Origin: a virus
Virus record (IMG/VR): IMGVR_UViG_3300036760_000065
Location: 1-42,270 of that record
Direction: 5' to 3' (one strand)
Length of the DNA: 42,270 nt
The position numbers and the translations under genes are program-made. Positions 1,950-8,331 of this stretch are shown piece by piece. Below the pieces are notes generated by a model. The model was not told the DNA's origin, searched no databases, and saw only the letters and a list, made by a program, of their open reading frames with translations. Each line of letters begins with the position of its first letter. Position 1 is the stretch's first letter.

Positions 1950-2069
1950 AATCTTAAAATAGAGGACTTTGAGGAATATCTTGAAGGAAAGGAGGTGCCA
2001 CTGGAGAAAAGTAAATTAGTTGCAGAAGCCAAAAAGTTAGGTGGTAAAGAAATTGAGGAAGGAGGATAA
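1950..2069 (+). CDS. In-frame extension of erf, or small CTG-start gene (2001-2069)
   Basis: Directly after the erf TAG the same frame continues for 39 codons to TAA 2067-2069. It reads like protein (NLKIEDFEEYLEGKE, then SKLVAEAKKLGGKEIEEGG). No ATG, GTG or TTG gives a sensible start. A very strong AAGGAGG at 1989-1995 sits five bases before CTG 2001, which would give a 22-residue peptide. The alternatives are stop readthrough of erf or a decayed gene. I cannot choose between them from sequence alone. Confidence 0.35.
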   Translation, partial: NLKIEDFEEYLEGKEVPLEKSKLVAEAKKLGGKEIEEGG

Positions 2070-2072
2070 CAA

Positions 2073-2168
2073 CTGAATAACTTCTGGTGGCGGAAGAGAG
2101 ACGCTATAAGGCAAGGTAGAATAAGTGAAGAGCCCACTGACCTACTGAGGCGTAATAGTTCCAAATGA
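2073..2168 (+). CDS. Putative 31-residue protein with CTG start
   Basis: The reading frame CTG 2073 to TGA 2166-2168 encodes a basic, Trp-containing peptide (NNFWWRKRDAIRQGRISEEP). AAGGAGG ending at 2065 precedes the CTG by seven bases, an ideal spacing, and no standard start codon is available. It is in the same frame as erf and the preceding segment. The sequence looks coding, but the length is small; a decayed fragment is possible. Confidence 0.4.
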   Translation: MNNFWWRKRDAIRQGRISEEPTDLLRRNSSK

Positions 2169-3025: not shown

Positions 3026-3328
3026 ATGCCAAAGGATGAGAGATTAACACCAGAAGAAATAGCGGGAATATTAGCTGATTGGAGTAAAGGCTCACCAGCC
3101 CCTACCCTCAGTAGCCAGAATAGAAGGAGGTGCAAAACGATGAAACCAGAGCCTTTTGATAAAAAGATGGATGATAAGGCAACTGGGGAAAATCTGAGAT
3201 GTTCACACTGCGAGTCTAGATTAGATTTCTTTAATGGATTAGAGTATATGCCCGCAGGTTTCTATTGTCCCAAATGTAACGATGCTCTCTATAACGAGGA
3301 CGGAGAAGCGATAGCGGAGTTAGAATAA
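3026..3328 (+). CDS. Zinc-ribbon protein (alternative start 3140)
   Basis: The longer reading starts at ATG 3026 (GGAGG at 3013-3017) and gives 100 residues: an N-terminal LTPEEIAGILADW segment, the 29-bp repeat encoding TLSSQNRRR, then the core from MKPEP. A second start, ATG 3140, has the repeat's AAGGAGG nine bases upstream and gives 62 residues. The core has CSHC and CPKC about 25 residues apart, a typical zinc ribbon (probable nucleic-acid or protein binding). The repeat may have fused a short upstream gene to this one. Both products are possible. Confidence 0.7.
   Translation: MPKDERLTPEEIAGILADWSKGSPAPTLSSQNRRRCKTMKPEPFDKKMDDKATGENLRCSHCESRLDFFNGLEYMPAGFYCPKCNDALYNEDGEAIAELE
3102..3130 (+). 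repeat. 29-bp direct repeat, copy 2
   Basis: Exact copy of 2439-2467, here inside an open frame. It again ends in AGAAGGAGG ahead of an in-frame ATG (3140). Neither neighbouring base matches, so the duplication is precisely 29 bp. Confidence 0.85.
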
Positions 3329-6434: not shown

Positions 6435-6753
6435 TGAGATTATAGAGAAGATAACTAGGGAAGTTGTGGCATTCTGCAATTCTCGCATATGGCATGATGG
6501 GGGATATATTCAGAGAAATCCCAACAAACCCCATATAGATAGTGATTTGCTTGATACCATCGCCAAAATCTTAAATATGGAAACAGATACTTTGAGAATA
6601 GCGATTGTAAGGAAGAAGCCAGAATTACCGGATACTCCCAATGGCGACCCTTATGATGATTACGCAAATGGATATATTCAATCTCAGGAAGATGTGCTCT
6701 CTGCTGGTTTCGTTCAAGAGGAAAAACTTCAGGAGGTGCAACATTCAAACTAA
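6418..6753 (+). CDS. Hypothetical protein, 111 aa
   Basis: ATG 6418 behind AAGGAGG, overlapping the previous gene by 17 bases. The N-terminal helix (DEIIEKITREVVAFCNSRIW) and SDLLDTIAKILNMETDTLRIAIVRKKPELP could form a small alpha-helical domain. The C-terminus is acidic. It contains the AGGAGG that serves the next gene. Not recognised. Confidence 0.65.
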   Translation: MSKGNDEIIEKITREVVAFCNSRIWHDGGYIQRNPNKPHIDSDLLDTIAKILNMETDTLRIAIVRKKPELPDTPNGDPYDDYANGYIQSQEDVLSAGFVQEEKLQEVQHSN

Positions 6754-7570: not shown

Positions 7571-7724
7571 TCTAACTGAAAAACAACTAAAAGAAATCAA
7601 AATGGAAGCCAATAAAGAACTCCACAAGAGGTTTCCGATGTTAGGAAATGATACAATAGACTATACCCATATTATCTATGTGCTTGAAGCATATAAGAAA
7701 GTTATTAAAAAGGGAGGTGTTTGA
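7551..7724 (+). CDS. Hypothetical protein, 57 aa
   Basis: ATG 7551 with AAGGAG upstream, inside the last 20 bases of the phosphoesterase gene. A helical small protein (LTEKQLKEIKMEANKELHKRFP, then YTHIIYVLEAYKKVIKKGG). It ends with AGGGAGG, the ribosome binding site for the next gene, and its TGA overlaps that ATG (TGATG). Function unknown. Confidence 0.7.
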   Translation: MSINQFNLTEKQLKEIKMEANKELHKRFPMLGNDTIDYTHIIYVLEAYKKVIKKGGV

Positions 7725-7987
7725 TGCCGTATATTGGACAGTTTAGACGAGATATTTTTGACCCAAATATTGAGTATATACTCCAAAGTTTGAGCACCAT
7801 CGGGGAACTTAATTATGTGATAACCAAATTACTTCTTGGTTATTTCCCTGAAAATAGTTATCAGGAATATAATGCCAAAGTTGGATTGCTGGAATGTGTT
7901 AAACAAGAATTATACCGGCGGGTGATTACCCCTTTTGAGGAGGAGAAACGCAAACTTAACGGGGATGTTTATGGAGGTGTAATATAA
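7724..7987 (+). CDS. Conserved phage protein (DUF6899-like)
   Basis: 87 residues, ATG 7724. The pattern MPYIGQFRRD, TIGELNYVITKLL, CVKQELYRRVITPFEEEKRKLNGDVY matches a short family I know from many phage and bacterial genomes as a conserved protein of unknown function, probably DUF6899. The name is from memory of the pattern, so moderate confidence. Its stop TAA overlaps the proposed AUA start of the next gene. Confidence 0.7.
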   Translation: MPYIGQFRRDIFDPNIEYILQSLSTIGELNYVITKLLLGYFPENSYQEYNAKVGLLECVKQELYRRVITPFEEEKRKLNGDVYGGVI

Positions 7988-8331
7988 AAATTTACCTTTG
8001 CCACACTTATGGTCGGAGACATAATCTATCAGATAAGGAATGTGAAAATAATGTGCTTCATTCTCTTGAGATAACTAGAGAATTAATTAAGTGTGGGCAC
8101 AATCCCTTTAATCCCCTTCTGTGGCATTATATTCATCTCGGTTGGCGACATAGTCCCGATGAAGATAAATATTATGAGTTAGTTTCTGCTTGGATTGTTA
8201 ATTGTGATGCTGTCTTTGTCGGCTCAATACCTAACTGGGAAAACTCTGGAGTCCATAGAGAAATTAAAATGGCAATAGCAATGGGCAAACCAATCTTTTA
8301 TCGGCTTGAAGATATCCCAAATAATATCTAA
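7984..8331 (+). CDS. Nucleoside 2-deoxyribosyltransferase-like protein, ATA start
   Basis: 115 residues of the DUF4406/deoxyribosyltransferase-like type. The N-terminal strand KIYLCHTYGRR, then LIKCGHNPFNPLLWHY, AWIVNCDAVFVG, NSGVHREIKMAIAMGKPIF fit the Rossmann-like fold, with an Asp and a Ser/Glu pair in the nucleotide pocket. The N-terminal strand is part of the fold, and it is only included if translation starts at ATA 7984. GGAGG at 7973-7977 lies six bases before it, and ATA overlaps the preceding TAA. The only standard start in frame is GTG 8053, which would delete the strand. Probable role: nucleoside or base salvage or modification. Confidence 0.8.
   Translation: MKIYLCHTYGRRHNLSDKECENNVLHSLEITRELIKCGHNPFNPLLWHYIHLGWRHSPDEDKYYELVSAWIVNCDAVFVGSIPNWENSGVHREIKMAIAMGKPIFYRLEDIPNNI

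Follow-up and report, generated by a model that had tools for sequence, protein, structure and literature searches.

A deoxyribosyltransferase-like (dRT-like) gene of a bacterial virus very probably begins at an AUA codon, at position 7984 of the virus record IMGVR_UViG_3300036760_000065, whose whole 42,270 bases we analysed and refer to as the window. After an in-frame TAA at 7957–7959 the reading frame runs open from 7960 to its end at 8331, and the first ATG, GTG or TTG within it is GTG 8053; by frame and homology tests, no standard start includes the conserved N-terminus of the protein. An earlier note on this DNA had proposed the AUA start from a missing first strand, a Shine-Dalgarno (SD) sequence and an overlap with the preceding stop codon. 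These three lines stand, and homologues, an AF2 model and a ranking of SD energies add support to them.

Sequence context of the AUA codon

The features of the region and related start sites are collected in Table 1. The placing of GGAGG six bases 5' of the ATA agrees with the coordinates, and the overlap of ATA with the preceding TAA does resemble the ATGA overlaps of this genome, eight or nine of which have this geometry elsewhere in the window.

Table 1. Coordinates of the proposed start, its alternatives and related features (window positions unless a contig is named)
Feature	Position	Strand	Remarks
Proposed ATA (AUA) start	7984–7986	+	Shares bases with the upstream TAA as ATAA
Shine-Dalgarno GGAGGTG	7973–7979	+	End of GGAGG (7973–7977) to ATA, 6 nt; spacer TGTAAT
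DUF1937/nucleoside deoxyribosyltransferase-like gene	7984–8331	+	115 codons counted from ATA; Pfam, phrog_355, AF2, Foldseek
DUF6899 upstream gene	7724–7987	+	ATG start, stop TAA 7985–7987; Pfam PF21840, E 2.8e-23
In-frame near-cognate alternative ATT	7990–7992	+	12-nt spacer, same SD
First standard in-frame start GTG	8053–8055	+	SD weak and badly spaced; strand 1 lost
Candidate start of metallophosphoesterase-like gene, GGAGGTG + ATT 6743–6745	6732–6745	+	Gene ends 7570; 275 aa; phrog_7339
SD + CTG 2001 (22 codons) and SD + CTG 2073 (31 codons)	1991–2168	+	Short ORFs without homology; weak cases
ATA-start frames behind AAGGAGGTG	L070:5297, L120:9939, L102:9476	L102: -	Unrelated viral contigs

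Because ATAA differs by one base from ATGA, the commonest overlap in the window, the true base at 7986 might be G, with a sequencing or consensus error concealing an ordinary ATGA overlap. We consider such an error unlikely: a separate error would have to be assumed for a second long gene (candidate start ATT 6743), even though start codons make up well under 1% of bases, and the reading frames of adjacent genes are uninterrupted, giving no hint of frequent errors. The occurrence of the same SD-AUA geometry in unrelated contigs, described below, also makes an error less likely.

The SD at the AUA codon is strong. Its predicted anti-SD pairing of -13.2 kcal/mol ranks seventh of 71, exceeded at six of the 70 canonical starts in the window (median -9.0 kcal/mol), and thus outranks about 90% of the genome's canonical sites, placing it in the top tenth. 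Of the nine copies of GGAGGTG in the window, all on the + strand, five precede ATG, one is intragenic, and the remaining three precede CTG 2001, ATT 6743 and ATA 7984. The strongest SDs are thus over-represented before near-cognate codons, as compensation of weak starts by the SD would predict. Local RNA structure adds no signal, a hairpin at the start site being no better than in shuffled sequences, and the only tRNA gene found in the window is a tRNA-Tyr, with no phage-encoded initiator tRNA.

The same SD could instead direct initiation at ATT 7990, the sole other in-frame AUN-type candidate, and AUU start codons are known, including those of Escherichia coli infC and pcnB. The earlier statement that only the ATA codon includes the first strand therefore holds for standard starts and not for this codon, from which most of strand 1 is retained. 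We nevertheless regard initiation there as very unlikely, since its spacer is beyond the range of most starts in the genome, it has no stop overlap, and the family profile and homologues start at or before the ATA codon.

Protein family, predicted fold and gene pairing

Read from the ATA codon, the protein matches DUF1937 (PF09152) with 27.5 bits (cut-off 23), residues 3–105 aligning to profile positions 3–112, and matches to phrog_355 and, weakly, to DUF7768 extend to residue 2. The label of DUF4406/deoxyribosyltransferase given earlier was right in that the protein is dRT-like; its best family is DUF1937, and DUF4406 barely exceeds its own cut-off. Similarity to PF05014 (nucleoside 2'-deoxyribosyltransferase) reaches 20.9 bits, under the cut-off of 28.8.

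The AF2 model of the ATA form (pLDDT 79, pTM 0.74) has strand 1 at residues 2–6 (KIYLC), followed by a helix at 17–36, a strand at 40–42 and further elements. It has the arrangement of the deoxyribosyltransferase fold, an N-terminal first strand followed by a Rossmann-like core, and it bears out the proposal that the first strand is encoded 5' of GTG 8053. With this model as query, Foldseek recovers nucleoside 2'-deoxyribosyltransferases, CMP N-glycosidases and PDB 1t1j, most alignments covering 105–115 columns (deoxyribosyltransferases, E 4.9e-5; 1t1j, TMq 0.67). Glu93 aligns with the catalytic Glu88 of the Chroococcidiopsis enzyme and is invariant in the homologue alignment (A1). From sequence and model, the product is predicted to be a nucleoside deoxyribosyltransferase-like enzyme of nucleotide metabolism.

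Initiation at GTG 8053 would give a 92-aa protein from the first standard in-frame start, behind a weak AAGGA. This is the least probable of the alternatives that we weighed: the protein would lose strand 1, which is present in all homologues seen, and the strong SD at 7973 would be left without a gene. The DUF1937 score of this form falls to 24.5 bits, with the match starting at profile position 35, the phrog score is also lower, and the AF2 model (pLDDT 75.6, pTM 0.67) retains two of the four strands. It is also highly unlikely that a recent ATG-to-ATA mutation silenced the gene and left it decaying. AUA does initiate weakly, but the frame, the aligned catalytic Glu and the SD are all intact.

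A bacterial DUF1937 protein (L285) aligns with the window protein from residue 4 (YLCHTYGRRH/YLATAYSKHP; E 0.016 in a single comparison); across 399 genomes, a single DUF1937 member was found. A profile made solely from the seven homologues, being too remote, did not match the window protein as far as its N-terminus, and the N-terminal argument thus rests on Pfam, the pairwise match and the model. At L285:183-1824 the bacterial DUF1937 gene comes immediately after one that is metallophosphoesterase-like, an arrangement reminiscent of that around the window gene.

A dRT-like gene directly follows a DUF6899 gene in eight other viral loci (L004, L009, L005, L014, L017, L018/L019 and L020), which we count as about six distinct cases because L004/L009 and L018/L019 are near-copies. 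All of these dRT-like genes, which are distant homologues, encode strand 1 from a standard ATG or GTG start; the comparison of KIYLCH with the first strand of homologues, proposed earlier as a check, thus comes out in favour of the longer protein. In L004/L009 the dRT-like gene starts with GTG in a GTGA overlap. The recurrence of the arrangement suggests that DUF6899 and the dRT-like gene form a functional pair. Searches of IMG/VR, GenBank phages and GTDB genomes (with dRT, MPE, DUF6899, portal, RecA-like and HNH queries) gave distant dRTs only and no close orthologue of the dRT-like gene, and L044, the relative contig that is closest when judged by replication genes, has no match to it in its record. 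We rejected a fusion with DUF6899 by -1 frameshifting: no slippery heptamer precedes the DUF6899 stop, and other viruses carry the two as separate genes.

Near-cognate starts in the window and in other viral contigs

For the metallophosphoesterase-like gene, ATT 6743 is a candidate start. The SD there (-14.0 kcal/mol) is the third strongest relative to the canonical starts and is stronger than that at ATA 7984. The coding signal of the gene peaks from exactly ATT 6743, although this is not independent, the training data having included the gene as read from 6743, and homology does not fix its start. The ATT sits behind AGGAGGTG, and the gene begins before the preceding one has ended. The CTG 2001 ORF also contains an in-frame GTG. 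ATT 6743 and the two CTG cases are companions to the AUA case and not proof of it.

The segment 2166–2475 (+), 310 nt with no good ORF, folds strongly at -120 kcal/mol (z -3.15), a value that none of 100 shuffles equals; it has no Rfam match and is a candidate structured RNA. A 29-nt direct repeat that ends in AGAAGGAGG is present in identical copies at 2439–2467 and 3102–3130, each just 5' of an ATG (2474 and 3140). At the start of the record, positions 1–100 consist of a tandem repeat that translates as alternating EAYDKAK-like units.

We scanned IMG/VR for AAGGAGGTG-N4-ATAAA, with a matched control carrying ACA. Among the matches listed, the ATA pattern occurs in at least 106 distinct contexts, 46 of them without a nearby standard start. 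Of these 46, at least three give open frames that begin with the ATA (L102, L120 and L070); they run for 71, 108 and at least 174 codons and lack a standard start in their first 27–63 codons. The ACA control yielded at least 102 contexts, of which 46 have no standard start nearby, and no such frame was seen among the matches listed; in its single long frame (L180), codon 4 is a standard start. This difference of three to none among the matches listed is supportive, being not significant alone and giving no estimate of rate. One of the frames, in L070, encodes a RepB-type primase (Pfam 7.9e-7); its first standard start is near codon 49, and phage primases align from residues 4–28, ahead of that start.

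Proposed initiation and comparison with known systems

We propose that the strong, optimally spaced SD would hold the 30S subunit at AUA 7984, and that ribosomes terminating on DUF6899 would re-initiate one base back through the ATAA overlap, with the AUA decoded as fMet at modest efficiency. Both the SD and the overlap would offset the weak pairing of AUA with the initiator, and the outcome would be low, coupled expression of a small predicted enzyme of nucleotide metabolism. The start probably arose when a single G became A in an ATGA overlap of the ancestor, converting AUG to AUA and UGA to UAA; this is the sole third-position change that preserves the upstream stop. Taken jointly, an AUA start read as fMet, compensation by SD and stop overlap, low coupled expression and a G-to-A origin make up an explanation that we hold to be probable. 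A broader reading is tentative and on balance doubtful: that near-cognate starts (AUA, AUU and perhaps CUG) form a set of weak, SD-compensated starts in the early operon of this phage lineage, and that AUA behind a perfect SD, including ATAA overlaps, is a recurrent, overlooked class truncated by annotation.

Standard gene finders allow ATG, GTG and TTG only, and genes like this one are therefore shortened, with loss of an essential strand. If AUA or AUU with a strong SD does recur in phages, many phage N-termini would be misannotated. The combination of SD and stop overlap gives a simple search rule for such genes, and the cases it finds would be a natural test of how a strong SD and re-initiation make up for weakness of the start codon.

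The earlier note described AUA initiation as very rare in bacteria; rare it is, but natural and experimentally mapped precedents exist. In Staphylococcus aureus, ribosome profiling showed that infC, ccpN and citZ start with AUA and that cvfC1 starts with AUU; of these, infC, cvfC1 and ccpN have predicted extended SDs. Measured with reporters, cvfC1, ccpN and citZ reached about 10% of the AUG level in poor medium, and ccpN up to 30% in rich medium (PMC13009471). Replacement of ATG by ATA in rpoS of E. coli O104:H4 cut RpoS up to about fivefold (PMC12864459). That report, quoting Hecht 2017, puts the efficiency of AUA in E. coli at up to 1% of that of ATG (PMC12864459), and this low value, as quoted there, counts against an AUA start in the window. 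No phage example of an AUA start is described in the literature that we searched; AUA initiation is already documented in bacteria, and the window case would add a phage gene to it.

The dRT-like gene shares its proposed AUA start with S. aureus infC, ccpN and citZ, and a strong SD directing a weak start is likewise stated for infC and ccpN. Those are chromosomal genes that were profiled and reporter-tested, whereas the window gene is a phage gene at a stop overlap. The AUU starts of S. aureus cvfC1 and E. coli infC and pcnB also combine a near-cognate AUN codon with a compensating SD, and they resemble the companion ATT 6743; their codon differs from AUA, and they belong to regulated chromosomal genes. 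The nucleoside 2'-deoxyribosyltransferases (Chroococcidiopsis thermalis, PDB 8pqr) and the DUF1937 structure (PDB 1t1j) are like the window protein in predicted fold and aligned catalytic Glu, but identity to them is about 20–25% and the protein scores below the PF05014 cut-off. The ATGA and GTGA overlaps of phage operons, among them the GTGA at the same junction in L004/L009, have the same 4-nt geometry and -1 frame, with short-range coupling expected; the window junction differs in having an ATA start and a TAA stop instead of TGA.
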